A stretch of 34,067 nt of DNA from Alphaproteobacteria bacterium (lineage in GTDB: Bacteria > Pseudomonadota > Alphaproteobacteria > Reyranellales > Reyranellaceae): positions 1 to 34,067 of the forward strand of contig VGCH01000030.1 in assembly GCA_016870115.1 (NCBI GenBank), read 5' to 3'. The notes under the pieces are model-generated. The model saw nothing but the letters and a program-made list of their open reading frames with translations, was not told the DNA's origin and searched no databases. The translations under genes were made by a program, and so were the position numbers. This document shows, piece by piece, positions 1,727 through 24,882 of this stretch; within the stretch, counting starts at the first letter, position 1, and each line of letters opens with the position of its first letter.

Positions 1727-2650
1727 TCATTCAGGCGCAGGTCGGGTTTCGGATGGCGGTCGCGCCGGCGCCTCGCGGTGGGCGAGCCACAGGCCCGCGC
1801 CCAGGCACAGGATCGCCGCGCCGAAGAGCGGCGAGAGCGGCTCGCCGAGAAACCACCACCCGAGCAGTGCGGCGGCCAGCGGCCCGGTGCCGACGAACAC
1901 CGTTACCCGCGTGGGCGACGCACGCGCAAGCGCCCACAGCCAGAGGAAGTACCCCAGCCCGCTCGACAGGCCTGCAACGAGGATCGCGAACCAGACGGAG
2001 ACACGAAAACTTGGAACCTCGGCGAAGAAACCCTCGGCGCCAGCGCTCGCGGCCAGTGCCGCGACCGCGGCCACCATGGCGAAGGCACCGACTTGCAGCG
2101 CCGGGTAGTGCCGAACGTAGGGGCGGTAGAGCACACTGCAGATCGCGCCGGTCAGCGCCGACGCAAAGACCGAGAGCTCCGGCCACCAGCCGAGCGGCCC
2201 ATCGGGAATGCCGTCGGTGAGCTTGTCGCCCATCGCCAGCGTCACGCCAGCGAGCGTAAGCGCGACACCGCCCAGCTTCGCCGCGGTCAGGCGCTCGAGG
2301 CCGAAGCTCGCCGCGATCGCGAGCGTGAGCAGCGGGAAGGTGGCGAAGATGAGCGTCGCGCGCGCCGCCGGCATGTGCTGGAGGCCCCAGTTCAGCAGCA
2401 GGATGAGGACACCGAACTGGGCGATGCCCAGCAACCCCATAGGCAACAGATCGCGAGCGGCGAACCGCACGCGGGGCAGGAGGAACACGATTGGCGCAAG
2501 ACAGAGAACGCCGGCAGCATAGCGCAGGAACGCGAGCGCGGCGGGCGATGCCTCGGCCAGCGCGTGCCGGCTGGCCACGGTCGCGAGCCCGATCAGCAGG
2601 CCATTCACCAGAGCGGCAAGCCCGGCGCCTATTCGAGACTCTTGTCCCAT
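1727..2650 (-). CDS. EamA/DMT-superfamily transporter
   Basis: A 307-aa integral membrane protein with about ten hydrophobic segments and the two-fold EamA repeat typical of drug/metabolite exporters (RhaT/YdcZ-type; family length about 280-310). Recognisable family features are an early TM1 with [26 protein letters not shown] and the second repeat around [25 protein letters not shown]. The cargo cannot be told from sequence. The start at 2650 overlaps the end of the MarR-GNAT gene by 22 bases, so the two are probably cotranscribed. A longer in-frame start at 2761 would lie deep inside that upstream gene and adds residues without family resemblance. Confidence 0.88.
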
Positions 2651-3558
2651 GTCTCGCTTACCAGGGTCTGGCCGAAGGCCCGCGTGCGTTCCTCCGAGGA
2701 CTTGGCGTAGCCCTCGGACGCATAGATCGCGCGCGCGGCCACCAACACATCGTGGGTCCACAAGGTCATGCGGCGATACCCTGCCCGACGGGCGAAGCGT
2801 TCGGCCTCGCGCACGAGGCGGCGGCCGAGTCCCGTGCCGCGCATCTCCGGTTCGACCAGCACCATGCGCAGTCGCGCGACCCGCGCACTGTCGCGGACGA
2901 CGAAAGCCGAGCCGACCGGTCGGCCGTCAAGCTCGGCGATGAAGCTGCGTTCTTGAGTGGCGTCGTAGTCGCGGATGAATTTCGCGGCGATCTCGGCGAC
3001 CAGCGCCTCGAACGTGCCGTTCCAACCGAATTCCTGAGCGTAGATCGCACCATGCCGCGACACCACCCAGCCCATGTCCCCAATGCGATGCTCGCGGATC
3101 GCGATGTCGGGCTGCGCGGCGTCGCGGTCGAGGAGGCGCTCGATCGTGCCCATCGCCGCCATCAGGTCGCGCTGCGCGCTATCGGAGAGCGGTTCGAGCA
3201 GGCGGGCGAGCTCCTCCCGCGATCCGCGATCGAGCGGCTCGAAAGCGCGCCGGCCGCGCGCGGTCGGCACCAGAACGCGGCGGCGCGCGTCTGCGGGATC
3301 GCGCTCGAGGCGCAGCAGTCCCTGGCGGCGGAAGCGCGCGAGGATGCGGCTGAGAAAACCGGGATCGACGCCCAGCTCGCGCACCAGCTCGGCCGCCACG
3401 GGTCGGTTGCGACGGTTGAGTTCGTAGAGCACGCGCGCCTCGGTGAGCGGGAAGGGACCGTTATGCAGCCCCTCGCGCAGCGCACCGATGCGCGCGGTGT
3501 AGAAACGGCTGAAGCGTCGCACCGCCTCTATTCGTCGCGCGAGTTCCGCGGTCGCCAT
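2629..3558 (-). CDS. MarR-family regulator fused to a GNAT acetyltransferase
   Basis: A 309-aa two-domain protein. Residues 1 to about 140 form a MarR winged helix: PFPLTEARVLYELNRRNRPVAAELVRELGVDPGF (recognition region, split here only by domain logic) and the wing DPADARRRVL. Residues about 150-309 form a GNAT acetyltransferase, with the acetyl-CoA loop at VEPEMRGTGLGRRLVREA and the late YASEGYAKSSEE. Such fusions are common in Proteobacteria; the acetylated substrate is usually unknown. The start at 3558 has GGGAGG 7 bases upstream. The gene is divergent from the thioredoxin/UGSC operon and leads a minus-strand run with an exporter. A TTGAC-N3-GTCAA palindrome 38 bases upstream is a plausible MarR operator. 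Confidence 0.9.
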   Translation of the reverse strand: MATAELARRIEAVRRFSRFYTARIGALREGLHNGPFPLTEARVLYELNRRNRPVAAELVRELGVDPGFLSRILARFRRQGLLRLERDPADARRRVLVPTARGRRAFEPLDRGSREELARLLEPLSDSAQRDLMAAMGTIERLLDRDAAQPDIAIREHRIGDMGWVVSRHGAIYAQEFGWNGTFEALVAEIAAKFIRDYDATQERSFIAELDGRPVGSAFVVRDSARVARLRMVLVEPEMRGTGLGRRLVREAERFARRAGYRRMTLWTHDVLVAARAIYASEGYAKSSEERTRAFGQTLVSETWDKSLE

Positions 3559-3595
3559 GTCTTGCCTCCCGAGGTGCTGAGAGTCGGGCAATTGG

Positions 3596-3608
3596 TTGAC
3601 GCAGTCAA
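3596..3608. promoter_or_regulatory. Candidate MarR operator (TTGAC-GCA-GTCAA)
   Basis: A perfect 5-bp inverted repeat with a 3-base spacer lies in the 161-bp divergent region between the MarR-GNAT gene and the plus-strand UGSC operon. MarR-family sites are often short palindromes of the TTGA(C/A)...(T/G)TCAA kind, so this is a reasonable autoregulatory site. The TTGAC could equally be a -35 element. Confidence 0.45.
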
Positions 3609-3719
3609 GTATCGCGCCGCCCGTCGCCACTACGCTTCCCTCCCGTGGTGCTTCGATCGACCGCTTTCCCCCGCGCGGGCGATGCCGCATGCTGGGCGCG
3701 GAATCGGACGGGAGGCGGC

Positions 3720-5180
3720 GTGGACGCGGGCAGAGTGACAGGCGTGACGGACGGGTTCGTGCTGGTCGCCAAGCGCGACTGTCCGACCTGCGTGCTGGTG
3801 GCGCCGGCGGTGGCGGAGATTTCGCGCGGCTCGCGGCCGATCGCGGTCTATAGCCAGGACGATCCGGCCTTTCCCGATGGGCTGCCCGGTGTGCGCGACG
3901 ATCGGACCTTGGAGGCCTCGTTCCGGCTGAAGATCGAGACCGTGCCGACGCTGATCCGCGTGGAAGGCGGTCGTGAGGTCGGCCGGCTGGTCGGCTGGGA
4001 GCGCAACGAGTGGCGCGCCTTCACCGGTCTCAATGCGCTGGGCGAGGATCTGCCGGAATGGCGGCCCGGCTGCGGCTCGAAGTCGGTCGAGCCGGGCGTG
4101 CCCGACGAGTTGGAGCTGCGCTACGGCGACGTGTCCTTCCAGGCGCGGACCATCGAGGTCGCCGAGGGCGACGATGAGGTCGAGGCCATGTATTCCCGCG
4201 GCTGGTCCGACGGACTGCCGCTGGTGCCGCCCACGAAGCTGCGCGTCCATCGCATGCTGAAGGGCACGACGCGCGATCCGAAAGAGGTTCTGGGCCTGCT
4301 GCCCCCCGACCTGCGGCCGATCACGGTGGAGAAGGTGGCGATCAACGCCGTCATGGCGGGCTGCGCGCCAGAATACCTGCCGGTGGTGCTGGCGGCCGTC
4401 GAGGCCGCGTTGATGGAGCCCTTTGCGCTGCACGGCGTGCTCGCGACCACCATGTTCTGCGGCCCGATCGCCATCGTGAACGGACCGATCGCGCGCCGCA
4501 TCGGCATGAACGCGCGGGGCAACGCGCTGGGTCAGGGCAATCGCGCCAACGCCACCATCGGCCGCGCCTTGCAGCTTTGCGTGCGCAATGTCGGCGGCGG
4601 CCGGCCGCAGGGCGTGGACCGCTCGACGCTCGGGCAACCTGGCAAGCTCGGCTTCTGCTTTGCCGAAGACGAGGAGGGGTCAGCGTGGAGTTCGCTCGCG
4701 GAGGATCGCGGCTTTACGCGGGACGCCAACACGGTGACGTTGTTCGCGGGCGACTCGCCGCACGGCATCGTCGACCAGCAATCGCGCACACCGGAGTCTC
4801 TCGCACGGTCCTTCGCGCTGTCGCTGCGTTCGGTGAACCACTGGAAGCTCGCGCAGGCGGCGGACGCGATTTTGGTCGTCTGTCCCGAGCACGAACGCAC
4901 CTTCAAGGCCGCCGGCTGGGACAAGGCGCGACTTCGCGCCGAGCTCGACGGCCTCCTGAAGTTGCCGGCGGCGGAGATTGTGCGCGGCGCGGGCGGCATC
5001 GCCGAGGGCGTGCCGGCGGCGGCGCTGGCTGAGCGCGATCACGTGCCGAAATTCCGCCCCGGCGGACTTCTGATCGTGCGCGCGGGCGGCGGAGCGGGTA
5101 TGTTCTCCGCCGTGATCGCAGGTTGGGCCGCTGCCGGTTCCGTCGGCAGTTCGCCGGTGACCTGCGCCATTCGCGACTGA
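3720..5180 (+). CDS. Thioredoxin-fold protein fused to a large uncharacterised domain; UGSC operon partner
   Basis: About 486 aa from a GTG start at 3720, chosen because GGGAGG lies 4 bases upstream; GTG codons at 3735 and 3744 are alternatives. Residues about 10-115 look like a thioredoxin fold: a strand FVLVAKRDCPTCVLVAPAV with a CxxC motif (C21-P-T-C24), and a cis-proline-like TVPTLI followed by EGGREVGRLVGW. The rest (about 120-486) is a cytosolic domain with SRGWSDGLPLVPPT and an LGQGNRANATIGRA stretch, ending in an IVRAGGGAGMFSAVIAGW segment. I recall this domain accompanying UGSC genes, but its function is not known to me. The selenoprotein gene starts 23 bases downstream, so an operon and a redox partnership are likely. 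Confidence 0.8.
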   Translation: MDAGRVTGVTDGFVLVAKRDCPTCVLVAPAVAEISRGSRPIAVYSQDDPAFPDGLPGVRDDRTLEASFRLKIETVPTLIRVEGGREVGRLVGWERNEWRAFTGLNALGEDLPEWRPGCGSKSVEPGVPDELELRYGDVSFQARTIEVAEGDDEVEAMYSRGWSDGLPLVPPTKLRVHRMLKGTTRDPKEVLGLLPPDLRPITVEKVAINAVMAGCAPEYLPVVLAAVEAALMEPFALHGVLATTMFCGPIAIVNGPIARRIGMNARGNALGQGNRANATIGRALQLCVRNVGGGRPQGVDRSTLGQPGKLGFCFAEDEEGSAWSSLAEDRGFTRDANTVTLFAGDSPHGIVDQQSRTPESLARSFALSLRSVNHWKLAQAADAILVVCPEHERTFKAAGWDKARLRAELDGLLKLPAAEIVRGAGGIAEGVPAAALAERDHVPKFRPGGLLIVRAGGGAGMFSAVIAGWAAAGSVGSSPVTCAIRD

Positions 5181-5203
5181 CGCCCACGCTTCGGAGGATG
5201 CAC

Positions 5204-5719
5204 GTGCAGCTTCTCGATCCCACCGCCGAAACCGAACCGGTGCGCCGCACGCGCCGCGCGCCGCCCGAGAAGATCGCCGGGCTGCGCGTGGGGCTGCTCG
5301 ACATCTCCAAGCCGCGCGGCAACATCTTCCTCGATCGCATCGAGAGCAGGCTCGCGGCCGAGGGCGTCGCGGTGACGCGCTATCGCAAGCCCACCTTCAC
5401 GCGGCCCGCGCCGGCCGAGCTCGCCCACAAGATCGCGAGCGAGGTCGATCTGGTGATCGAAGGGTTGGCCGATTGAGGGTCTTGCACATCGTGCAGTCTG
5501 CACGACATCAAGACCCTCGACGAAAAAGGCATCCCCGGCGGCTACGTGGCCTCGTCGGAGTTCACCCAGGCGACGGAGGCCCAGGCCCAGTCACTGGGCT
5601 TCGAGCCCGGCGTCGTTTATGTGCCGCACCCGATTCAGGATCGAACCGACGAGGAGATGCGGGCGCTGGCCGACCAGGCTTATGAGCAGGTGCTCGCCCT
5701 GATCCGCCGCGTCGGCTAA
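5204..5719 (+). CDS. UGSC-family selenoprotein (in-frame TGA read as selenocysteine)
   Basis: A 171-aa selenoprotein. The frame runs IAGLRVGLLDISKPRGNIFL ... LVIEGLAD, meets TGA at 5474-5476 (residue 91), and continues U-G-S-C-T-S-C-S-L-H-D-I-K for 80 more codons to TAA at 5717. The region after the TGA is clearly coding (VASSEFTQATEAQAQ, VVYVPHPIQDRTDEEM), and the product matches the UGSC (seleno)protein family, predicted from metagenomes and of unknown, presumably redox, function; other members carry Cys at the U position. A double stem-loop SECIS begins at the TGA. The start is probably GTG at 5204, with GGAGG 6 bases upstream; ATG at 5198 abuts that ribosome site directly. No selA/B/C/D genes are in this window. 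A nonsense-mutated pseudogene is unlikely because the downstream frame and hairpin are intact. Confidence 0.9.
5474..5519 (+). promoter_or_regulatory. Bacterial SECIS element for UGA recoding
   Basis: The UGA codon (5474-5476) lies at the base of a perfect 10-bp stem (5475-5484 with 5509-5518; U5474-G5519 adds a wobble pair). Above a small internal loop (CACA/CAT) a perfect 7-bp stem (5489-5495 with 5499-5505) carries a 3-base loop GUC (5496-5498), or AGUCU if the last pair opens. A guanine at the loop start, 19 bases after the UGA, fits the SelB-binding rule for bacterial SECIS elements and resembles the E. coli fdhF loop. Confidence 0.9.
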
Positions 5720-8657: not shown

Positions 8658-9800
8658 ATGTCTGACGCAGAGCGACTTCACCGCGCGCTGGTGGGCCAGC
8701 AGGGCTCACGCCGCTCGCTCAATACGCCGGCGCTGGTGGTCGACCTCGATCGGCTCGAGCGCAATATCGCGGCGATGGCCGCGTTCGCGCGCGAGAAGGG
8801 CGTGAAGCTGCGCCCTCACGCCAAGACGCATAAATCGCCCGACGTCGCGCGTCGCCAAATCGCCGCCGGCGCGCTTGGGTCTTGCTGCGCCAAGCTGGGT
8901 GAGGCCGAGGCGTTGGCCGAGGGTGGTATCGAGGGACTGCTGATCACCTCGCCCGTGGTGACGCCGCAGGCGATCGCGCGACTGATCGCGCTGAACGAAC
9001 GGATGAGCGAGCTGATGGTCGTGGTCGACCATCCGGCCAATGCCGAGGCGTTGGCCCAGGCAGCGGCCGGGGCCAAGCGACTCAAGGTCGTGGTCGATAT
9101 CGATCCCGGCATCCATCGCACCGGTGTTGCCTCGCCTGAGGCGGCACTCGCGCTCGTTCGGCGTATCACCTCGCTGCCCGCGCTCGACTGGCGCGGCGTG
9201 CAGTTCTATTGCGGGCGGCATCAGCACATCGTCGACTACGCCGACCGTCGGACCCAGATCGAGGAACGTACGACCTATCTGCGCGGCATCCTCGATCTGC
9301 TCGCGACAGCGGGGTTGCGGCCCGCGATCGTCACCGGCTCGGGCACCGGCACCCACCGAATCGATGCGGAGTTGGGCATCTTCACCGAGTTGCAGGTCGG
9401 CTCCTACGTCTTCATGGATCACGACTACAATGTCTGCGACATCGACGGCGCGGGCCGGCCGGTCTACGAGCAGGCGCTGCAGATCGACGCCTCGGTGGTG
9501 AGCGCCAACACGCCAGGCCTTGCGACGGTCGATGCCGGTCTGAAGGCGATGGCGACCGAGAAGGGTCCGCCGCAGATCCTCGCTGGCGCGGCGGCTGGCA
9601 GTACCACGCGCTTCATGGGCGATGAGCATCTGGCCGTGATCGCGCCCGAGGGCGGCGTAGCGCCGGCGTTGGGTGAACGGGTGGTGCTGGTGCCACCGCA
9701 CTGCGATCCGACGGTCAATCTTTACGACGCCTTCCACGTCGTTCGCGGCGACACGCTGGTCGATATCTGGCCGGTCGCGGCGCGCGGCCGGTCGCGGTAG
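8658..9800 (+). CDS. D-threonine aldolase / DSD1-family PLP enzyme
   Basis: A 380-aa fold-type III (alanine racemase-like) PLP enzyme of the D-threonine aldolase / D-3-hydroxyaspartate dehydratase group. The PLP-lysine motif is RPHAKTHKSP (K56 the probable Schiff-base lysine). GTGTHRIDAELGIFTELQVGSYVFMD holds the phosphate-binding glycines. The C-terminal VPPHCDPTVNLYD has the H348-C349-D350 metal motif characteristic of the Zn/Mn-binding family. It would cleave D-beta-hydroxy amino acids to glycine and an aldehyde, or dehydrate them; which one cannot be decided. The gene begins 2 bases after the SDR stop and is followed by sbtA after 10 bases. Confidence 0.9.
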   Translation: MSDAERLHRALVGQQGSRRSLNTPALVVDLDRLERNIAAMAAFAREKGVKLRPHAKTHKSPDVARRQIAAGALGSCCAKLGEAEALAEGGIEGLLITSPVVTPQAIARLIALNERMSELMVVVDHPANAEALAQAAAGAKRLKVVVDIDPGIHRTGVASPEAALALVRRITSLPALDWRGVQFYCGRHQHIVDYADRRTQIEERTTYLRGILDLLATAGLRPAIVTGSGTGTHRIDAELGIFTELQVGSYVFMDHDYNVCDIDGAGRPVYEQALQIDASVVSANTPGLATVDAGLKAMATEKGPPQILAGAAAGSTTRFMGDEHLAVIAPEGGVAPALGERVVLVPPHCDPTVNLYDAFHVVRGDTLVDIWPVAARGRSR

Positions 9801-9810
9801 GGCCGACGCG

Positions 9811-10806
9811 ATGTCGGAGCTGCTTGCGCTCGCGGGCGCCAATCTGCTCTCGCCGATGGTGCTGTGCTTCGTGCTCGGCGCGGTCGCGGCGGCCATCCGA
9901 TCCGATCTCGAGATTCCCGAGGCGATCGCCAAGGGACTTGCGATCTACCTGATGCTCGCGATCGGCATGAAAGGCGGGCTCGCCATGGCGAAGTCGGACG
10001 GCGCCAATGTGCTGCCGTCGATCGCGATGGCGTTGGCCCTGTCCTTCGCCCTGCCGCTGCTTGCCTACGCCATCCTGCGCGGGATCCGTGCGCTGGGGTC
10101 CGTTGATGCCGCCGCTGTCGCCGCGCACTATGGTTCGGTCAGCATTGTCACCTTCGTGACGGCGGTCGAGTTTCTGAATGGCCGGGGCGTGGCGTTCGAT
10201 GGTGTGCTGGTCGCCATGATGGCGGCGATGGAGACACCCGCCATCGTGACCGGCCTCCTGCTCGCGCGCCGCGCCCTGGGCCCGGGAACGCAGCCGCAGC
10301 GCAGCCGGGCGCGCCAATCGCACTTGCTGCGCGAGGTCTTGGCCAATGGCAGCATCGTGGTGTTGGTGGGCGGTTTCGCCATCGGCTGGGCCGTCGGCCC
10401 GTCGGGCATGGAGAAGGTGAAGCCGTTCATCTTCGACATCTACAACGGCATGCTCTGTCTCTTCCTGCTCGATATGGGCCTGGTGGCGATGCGCCAGATG
10501 CGCTCGGTCGATGACCTGGGGCTCAGGCTCGTGGGCTTCGGGCTGGTGATGCCGCCGCTCAATGCCGCCATCGGGTTCGCCGCTGCCCGCGCGCTCGGCT
10601 TCGATGTCGGCAGCACCGCGCTGCTCGCCACGCTCTGCGCGTCGGCGTCCTACATCGCTGTGCCGGCGGCGATGCGGCTGGCCTTGCCGCAGGCGCGGCC
10701 GGCGATCTACGTGACGCTGTCGCTCGGGGTCACCTTTCCGTTCAACGTGGCAATCGGGATCCCGCTCTATCTCTCGATCGCCCAGTGGCTCGCGAGGTCG
10801 CCATGA
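9811..10806 (+). CDS. sbtA: SbtA-type sodium-dependent bicarbonate transporter
   Basis: A 331-aa inner-membrane protein of the SbtA family, Na+-dependent HCO3- symporters best known from cyanobacterial carbon concentration. It has about ten hydrophobic segments in two inverted halves. The conserved glycine-rich segments are LAIYLMLAIGMKGGLAMA near the N-terminus and FLLDMGLVAMRQM and LLATLCASASYIAVPAAMRLALP in the second half. The length fits proteobacterial members (about 320-340). Its stop overlaps the start of sbtB (ATGA at 10803), the same pairing as in cyanobacteria. The function in this heterotroph-like context, perhaps supplying bicarbonate to carboxylases or moving another small anion, is open. 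Confidence 0.88.
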   Translation: MSELLALAGANLLSPMVLCFVLGAVAAAIRSDLEIPEAIAKGLAIYLMLAIGMKGGLAMAKSDGANVLPSIAMALALSFALPLLAYAILRGIRALGSVDAAAVAAHYGSVSIVTFVTAVEFLNGRGVAFDGVLVAMMAAMETPAIVTGLLLARRALGPGTQPQRSRARQSHLLREVLANGSIVVLVGGFAIGWAVGPSGMEKVKPFIFDIYNGMLCLFLLDMGLVAMRQMRSVDDLGLRLVGFGLVMPPLNAAIGFAAARALGFDVGSTALLATLCASASYIAVPAAMRLALPQARPAIYVTLSLGVTFPFNVAIGIPLYLSIAQWLARSP

Positions 10807-21193: not shown

Positions 21194-23817
<2,624 letters not shown>

Positions 23818-23818
<1 letters not shown>

Positions 23819-24882
23819 CACAGGAAACTCGCCGCCTCCATGCCCGACAGCCGCAGCGCCGGGGGTAGCGTCCGCCAGCGGCGCGGTTTGATGCCCGCGA
23901 CGGCGCCGGCGATCGCCTTGATGTGGGCTGGCGTCGTGCCGCAGCAGCCGCCCACGACGTTCAGCCAGCCACTCTCGGCCCAGCCGCGCACCAGCTTCGC
24001 CGTCATCTCTGGAGGCTCGTCGTACTGGCCAAGTTCGTTCGGCAGGCCGGCGTTGGGGTAGACGCACAGCATGCTGTCGACCTTCGGATTGAGTGCGTTC
24101 ACATAGGGATGCAGCTCGGTGGCGCCGAAGCTGCAGTTGAGCCCCATCGTGATCGGCTTGGCGTGCCGAACCGAATGCCAGAAGGCCTCGACCGTCTGGC
24201 CCGCGAGGTTGCGGCCGGCGAGATCGGTCAACGTCATCGACACCATGACCGGCAGCACCTCGCCGCGCGCTTCGCCCGCCTCATCGAGGGCGACCAGCGC
24301 GGCCTTGGCGTTCAGTGTGTCGAAAACGGTCTCGATCAGGATGAAGTCGACGCCGCCATCCAACAGCCCGTCGATCTGTTCGCGGTAGATCCCCTTCACC
24401 TCGTCGAAGCTGACAGCGCGGAAGCCCGGATCGTTGACGTCGGGTGACACCGACAGGGTCTTGTTGGTGGGGCCGAGCGCACCGACGACGAAGCGCGGCT
24501 TTTCGGGGCGCGCCTCGGTCGCCCGGTCGGCGCAGGCGCGGATGACACGGGCCGCCGCGAGGTTGACCTCGCGCGCCATGCCGGCGATGCCGTAGTCGGC
24601 GAGGCTGATGGCATTTGCGTTGAAGGTGTTGGTGGCGAGCAGATCGGCGCCGGCGTCGATGTAGGCGTTGCAGATCTCGCCGACGATCTCCGGCCGCGTG
24701 AGGTTCAGGAGATCGTTGTTGCCCTTCTGGTCGTGGTTGAAGCTGCGGCCGGCGCGAAAGCCTTCCTCGTCCAGCCGGTAGCTCTGGATCATCGAGCCAT
24801 AGGGCCCATCCTTCACGAGAATGCGCTCCTCACCGATGCGGCGCAGCAGGTCGGCCTTCGCGGCCCGGTCGATGGCTGTCAT
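23818..24882 (-). CDS. metH1: Homocysteine S-methyltransferase module of methionine synthase (MetH1)
   Basis: A 354-aa protein equal to the N-terminal homocysteine-binding barrel of Met[19 protein letters not shown] replaces the usual DGAMGTMIQ opening. Zinc-ligand cysteines lie in GLNCSFGAT and in the terminal [11 protein letters not shown]. It binds zinc-activated homocysteine and takes the methyl group from methylcobalamin on MetH2. The gene starts with ATGA overlapping the metF stop and ends sharing a base with the metH2 start, so stoichiometric coupled translation is likely. Confidence 0.94.

Follow-up and report, generated by a model that had tools for sequence, protein, structure and literature searches.

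A UGSC-family selenoprotein gene and its upstream partner: candidate components of a thioredoxin-fed two-protein reductase

In the window analysed here (the whole stretch of 34,067 nucleotides), a reading frame extends for 90 codons from GTG 5204 to an in-frame TGA at codon 91 (5474-5476) and then continues through 80 sense codons to a TAA, raising the question of whether the TGA terminates the gene or is read as selenocysteine (Sec) and, in the latter case, what the protein might do. A reading made from the sequence alone had proposed a hidden selenoprotein of the UGSC family, split by this TGA and lying in an intact operon. Its coordinates (5204-5719, TGA 5474 and TAA 5717) are exact to the base and the selenoprotein assignment stands; the word 'hidden' is an overstatement, as the UGSC family is by now covered by an NCBI equivalog model. 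The features of the locus are collected in Table 1.

Table 1. Features of the UGSC locus, in window coordinates
Feature	Position	Strand	Remarks
Divergent MarR-GNAT gene upstream of the module	2629..3690	-	Not a conserved neighbour
Partner gene	3717..5180	+	Start uncertain, about 3717-3744; N-terminal thioredoxin domain and 330-aa domain
CPTC redox motif, partner thioredoxin domain	3780..3791	+	CxTC kept in most thioredoxin-bearing partners
330-aa partner domain	4089..5177	+	Conserved-motif alignment; AlphaFold pLDDT 92.4
Ribosome-binding site GGAGG	5193..5197	+	6 nt 5' of GTG 5204
UGSC-family selenoprotein gene	5204..5719	+	171 aa with Sec; GTG start, TAA 5717-5719
In-frame TGA, predicted Sec91	5474..5476	+	TGA in 97/97 relatives and in 44/44 UGSC genes of the class sample
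SECIS hairpin starting at the TGA, apical loop GUC	5474..5519	+	-27.8 kcal/mol, z -6.0
Cys94 to Cys97 codons	5483..5494	+	Motif U-G-S-C-x-x-C

Reading of the in-frame TGA

Comparison of the 171-residue product with the family models, a check that the sequence-only reading had suggested, gave 149.9 bits against NF041046 ('UGSC family (seleno)protein'; cut-off 125) and 142.2 bits against PF24696 (cut-off 25), both in excess of the curated cut-offs and upholding the family assignment. The ATG start codons of five Reyranella-type orthologues align with GTG 5204, and the Reyranella orthologues have the ribosome-binding site in the same arrangement ahead of their ATG.

A search of named genomes produced 80 relatives. 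Those from Reyranella massiliensis and allied alphaproteobacterial genomes are the closest, with 82-83% identity over the full length, and also have the TGA; further relatives are found in Gammaproteobacteria, Acidimicrobiia, Latescibacteria, Chloroflexi and Gemmatimonadota. All 97 relatives that are readable in the given orientation, which represent many phyla, have TGA as the motif codon, and a cysteine codon is found in none of them. A single internal TGA is present in each of 44 UGSC matches from 17 genomes of the class; UGSC genes also occur in 75 of 75 same-family genomes, with one internal TGA in each listed match. Residues that are invariant in the UGSC alignment are Lys36, Lys62, Asp90, Sec91, Gly92, Ser93, Cys94, His100, Asp101, Phe120, His142 and Pro143, and Cys97 is nearly so. 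The earlier placement of the TGA at the Sec position of the family is thus borne out by a codon that is TGA in all relatives, while the cysteine triad said to follow it is slightly misplaced, the triad being Sec91-Cys94-Cys97.

Relative to five Reyranella orthologues, dN/dS is 0.16-0.32 on the 5' side of the TGA and 0.06-0.13 on the 3' side, and the downstream part is therefore translated and selected as protein; these values and the full-length identity also confirm the protein character that had been attributed to the frame past the TGA. Under the standard bacterial table TGA is read as a stop, and it could accordingly be a true stop here or an assembly error, with the downstream frame a remnant. 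However, the same codon in 97 of 97 relatives spread over many phyla, the purifying selection past it, the presence of a SECIS hairpin and the complete Sec machinery of the genome (see below) leave this explanation a negligible probability. A frameshift or a pseudogene was rejected in view of the conserved TGA, the SECIS hairpin and the purifying selection past the TGA.

Bacterial SECIS elements are defined as stem-loops just past the UGA with a G in a small apical loop (PMC1088965), a definition that the hairpin at 5474-5519 fits. The 50 bases from the TGA have a folding energy of -27.8 kcal/mol (z -6.0), and none of 200 shuffled sequences was equally stable. Across 90 aligned relatives, comprising 81 distinct sequences, 95% of the upper-stem cells are paired (over the distinct sequences) and the apical G and U are invariant; pair 18-30 occurs as G-C, G-U or A-U, with both sides altered in five sequences. 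The third-codon-position bases C21 and T24 at the apical stem-loop are fixed in 90 of 90 sequences although the amino acids would permit change, indicating selection on the RNA. Per-locus energies compared with synonymous recodings give a mixed picture (mean z -1.5, with 30 of 97 below -2) because the lower stem is variable, so that the support for a SECIS element comes from the upper stem. A search of Rfam gave no match at this element.

The genome to which the window belongs (3.56 Mb, 100% complete) contains all four of the genes that the sequence-only reading had proposed to look for, with selC (tRNA-Sec, 72 bits) at C19:1476-1567, selB at C19:2903-4750, selA at C19:5546-6856 and selD on contig C34. 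As judged from sequence, both the cis and the trans parts of the decoding apparatus are present, and UGA 5474 would be read as selenocysteine by SelA, SelB, tRNA-Sec and SelD under the guidance of the hairpin at 5474-5519. It is nearly certain that 5204-5719 encodes a genuine UGSC-family selenoprotein. As a sequence, it is a fresh member of an already known family; the new points are that it has an obligate partner, that its predicted fold is not that of thioredoxin and that it may be tied to PrdB/GrdB, and no statement of any of these three was found in the literature searched.

Linkage to the upstream partner gene

The gene upstream of UGSC ends 23 nt before the UGSC start codon. Its N-terminus produced weak hits with thioredoxin families in Pfam and NCBIfam, a profile match to thioredoxin 2o85 (E 2.9e-4) and, via structure comparison of residues 1-105, matches to thioredoxins at Z about 10; having both a CxxC motif and a thioredoxin fold, it is a thioredoxin domain. 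The 330-residue domain that follows has no match in Pfam or NCBIfam. It is characterized by the invariant or near-invariant motifs GWSDGLPxVPPT, NAVMAGCxPxY, IGRA, PxKxxxCxAE and GGxAG, and its conserved Cys codons lie at 4362-4364 and 4656-4658. A fold search with the whole partner returned matches that were taken up by the thioredoxin domain, and comparison of the partner with the NCBIfam pyruvoyl-subunit models (PrdA and GrdE) gave no match up to E 1. Many partner genes are without the thioredoxin domain.

A relative of the partner domain is present in all 113 UGSC loci examined. Over 80 loci the partner is the sole conserved neighbour, adjoining UGSC on the same strand in 76 of 76 cases, with every other neighbour family found at no more than 13 of the 80. 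In a class sample of 190 genomes, the partner occurs in 17 and UGSC in the identical 17, with no genome containing one alone; because the genomes are related, a simple probability for this co-occurrence would mislead. In 17 class genomes, 41 of 44 UGSC genes adjoin a partner, and no partner match was found near the remaining three. UGSC and the partner are genetically linked, and it is very probable that they constitute an obligate two-gene module. Of the intact operon proposed previously, the pairing with the upstream gene stands, and the downstream acyl-CoA ligase and SDR genes drop out as not being conserved neighbours. On the same grounds, a functional operon extending downstream through the acyl-CoA ligase, SDR and aldolase-like genes was rejected, the partner alone being conserved. 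The divergent MarR-GNAT gene is a possible regulator.

Three layouts are observed: UGSC preceded by a thioredoxin-bearing partner, UGSC preceded by a partner, and UGSC with two partner genes after it. All three are represented among the four UGSC genes of the present genome, each of which has the TGA. At C5:89543-91892, a tandem pair of diverged partner genes lies after UGSC and the UGSC motif is UGSCSSW, lacking the third Cys; the same layout is seen in other genomes. A further partner-UGSC pair on C6 (L124:6640-14623) lies near genes for a TauD-family dioxygenase, a branched-chain amino-acid-type ABC transporter and an SDR. More generally, some UGSC paralogues are found beside branched-chain amino-acid-type ABC transporters or TauD dioxygenase, amidohydrolase or acyl-CoA genes. 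The presence of several paralogues per genome and such neighbours fit a catabolic role with differing substrates; the neighbours are not conserved and prove nothing.

Elsewhere in the window, a gene for a member of the Na+-dependent bicarbonate transporter family (Sbt_1, PF05982) is found at 9673-10806. A methionine synthase MetH-like gene is present at 21194-24067 on the minus strand, with an open frame that is without the first 350 model positions; the missing part may be the separate gene at 23818-24882.

Predicted fold and relation to PrdB and GrdB

An AlphaFold model based on 57 UGSC sequences (pLDDT 93.8) contains five alternating strand-helix units and places Sec91 between strand 3 (residues 83-89) and the helix formed by residues 92-107. 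UGSC is thus predicted to be a five-unit β-α Rossmannoid with Sec in the U-G-S-C-x-x-C motif after strand 3. A thioredoxin fold had been suggested for the family in a 2008 survey (PMC2398784); the modelled strand order differs from the thioredoxin order β-α-β-α-β-β-α, and the model argues against that fold. Foldseek matches to UGSC are a mixture of Rossmannoid and flavodoxin-like folds; several GPCR entries also appear, probably because these structures contain flavodoxin as a fusion partner. By sequence, no relatives of UGSC or of the PrdB-like proteins were found in the PDB.

The top structural neighbour of UGSC residues 23-171 is chain H of 8s7v (Z 12.6, 3.0 Å over 131 residues), the methyl-coenzyme M reductase (MCR) activation complex, with the next natural entries at Z about 10. 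Chain H may be Mmp7, which has an McrC-like domain; in the MCR activation complex, McrC and Mmp7 hold Fe-S clusters (PMC12176620). This best match, together with the presence of the invariant His100, Asp101 and His142 alongside the Sec/Cys motif in one small protein, could indicate that UGSC binds a metal or metalloid compound through Sec91, Cys94, Cys97 and conserved His as part of a transfer or detoxification complex. However, the identity of chain H is not certain, the match may reflect the shared Rossmannoid fold alone, the partner's thioredoxin domain suggests redox cycling and metal genes are not conserved nearby, which together make metal binding improbable.

A second line of comparison involves the Sec-containing PrdB and GrdB subunits. 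Alignment of the UGSC profile with one built from about 25 PrdB-like sequences using hhalign gave a score of 30.7 (E 7e-4 over 79 columns, hhalign probability 26%) with Sec aligned on Sec; the maximum was 24.7 for 100 column-shuffled controls and 24.8 for 38 unrelated neighbour families, and masking of the UxxC columns left a score of 29.2. A PrdB-like HMMER profile reached at most 10.7 bits on UGSC sequences (decoys 2.6), the reverse test with a UGSC profile on PrdB-like sequences was barely apart from the decoys (4.2 versus 3.2 bits), and one PrdB-like protein matches the NCBI UGSC model at E 0.014. UGSC sequences gave no match at any reported level to PF07355, TIGR04483 or TIGR01918. The GrdB motif is UxxCxxC (PMC13188914), with which UGSC-x-x-C is also compatible. 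These profile comparisons are suggestive of shared descent between UGSC and the Sec domain of PrdB/GrdB, although part of the signal may be one that any Rossmannoid could share.

PrdB-like selenoproteins with UPxC are encoded in genomes of the same family (TIGR04483, E about 1e-30) and in 36 of 289 genomes of the class, many being about 400 residues in length with an extra C-terminal part. The present genome has two PrdB-like genes, C2:169185-169766 and C2:104769-105344, each with one in-frame TGA; together with the four UGSC genes, it therefore has at least six selenoprotein genes.

Candidate function and comparison with known systems

The explanation that best accounts for these observations as a whole, and one that is moderately probable, is that the Sec-decoded UGSC protein is the selenol half of a two-protein, thioredoxin-fed reductase completed by the upstream partner. 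UGSC and the upstream-gene product would form one enzyme, presumably as a physical complex, in which the selenol of Sec91 would act as the nucleophile, attacking a small organic substrate held by both proteins. The oxidized state would be a Sec91-Cys94 selenenylsulfide with Cys94 as the resolving residue, and re-reduction would be carried out by the CPTC thioredoxin domain of the partner or, where the partner is without one, by a separate thioredoxin. The reaction could be the reductive cleavage of a small organic molecule, as performed by the PrdB/GrdB selenoproteins; by analogy from the weak homology and the shared active site, this chemistry is a plausible option with somewhat less than an even chance.

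Alternatively, UGSC could be a thioredoxin-fed selenol peroxidase or disulfide reductase, with Sec91 reducing peroxides or protein disulfides and the partner merely supplying electrons. The combination of UxxC with a dedicated thioredoxin domain is in keeping with such a role, and UxxC selenoproteins are mostly thiol oxidoreductases as described in the survey (PMC2398784). However, the predicted UGSC fold is not thioredoxin-like, an electron carrier would need nothing near the size of the conserved 330-residue partner domain, which persists in partners without the thioredoxin domain, and several paralogues occur per genome, some in catabolic neighbourhoods, so that this role is rather unlikely.

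Returning to the two-protein reductase, a more specific and tentative proposal is that UGSC and its partner form a new selenoenzyme class of environmental bacteria that is driven by thioredoxin, branches distantly from PrdB/GrdB and would cleave a carbon-heteroatom bond, with the partner domain, in both its one-gene and two-gene versions, serving as the subunit that confers substrate specificity. UGSC is a widespread selenoprotein family without known function, listed in the survey among the most abundant selenoprotein families of water metagenomes (PMC2398784), and the partner offers a first testable lead. Paired with an obligate partner that contains its own thioredoxin domain, the former orphan becomes part of a two-protein system open to expression, reconstitution and substrate trials. 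If the link to PrdB/GrdB is true, selenium chemistry of the PrdB/GrdB type, familiar mainly from anaerobes that ferment amino acids, would be extended to bacteria of soil and water.

Compared with known systems, the protein shares with the UGSC family (NF041046 and PF24696) a full-length match above both cut-offs, the UGSC motif, the Sec codon and the SECIS element, and shows no essential difference from it, as is also seen from its identity to the Reyranella orthologues. The UGSC/Unknown_1 fusion described in the GOS survey (PMC2398784) likewise joins UGSC to an uncharacterized conserved domain in which one or more Cys residues are conserved; there the two are fused in one gene, whereas here they are two closely spaced genes, and that paper assumes a thioredoxin-like fold for UGSC. 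Judged by its description, Unknown_1 may be the partner domain. Thioredoxin-fold selenoproteins (Trx-like and Prx-like) have the UxxC motif in common with UGSC, whereas the UGSC model consists of alternating β-α units with best matches to flavodoxin-, receiver- and Rossmann-like structures. In contrast to D-proline reductase PrdB and glycine/betaine/sarcosine reductase GrdB, UGSC has no match to the family models and a shorter N-terminal part, its partner does not match the PrdA/GrdE models and its hosts here are not clostridia; what it shares with them is Sec in a UxxC motif (UxxCxxC in GrdB), a weak profile match that places Sec on Sec and the presence of PrdB-like genes in the same genome.
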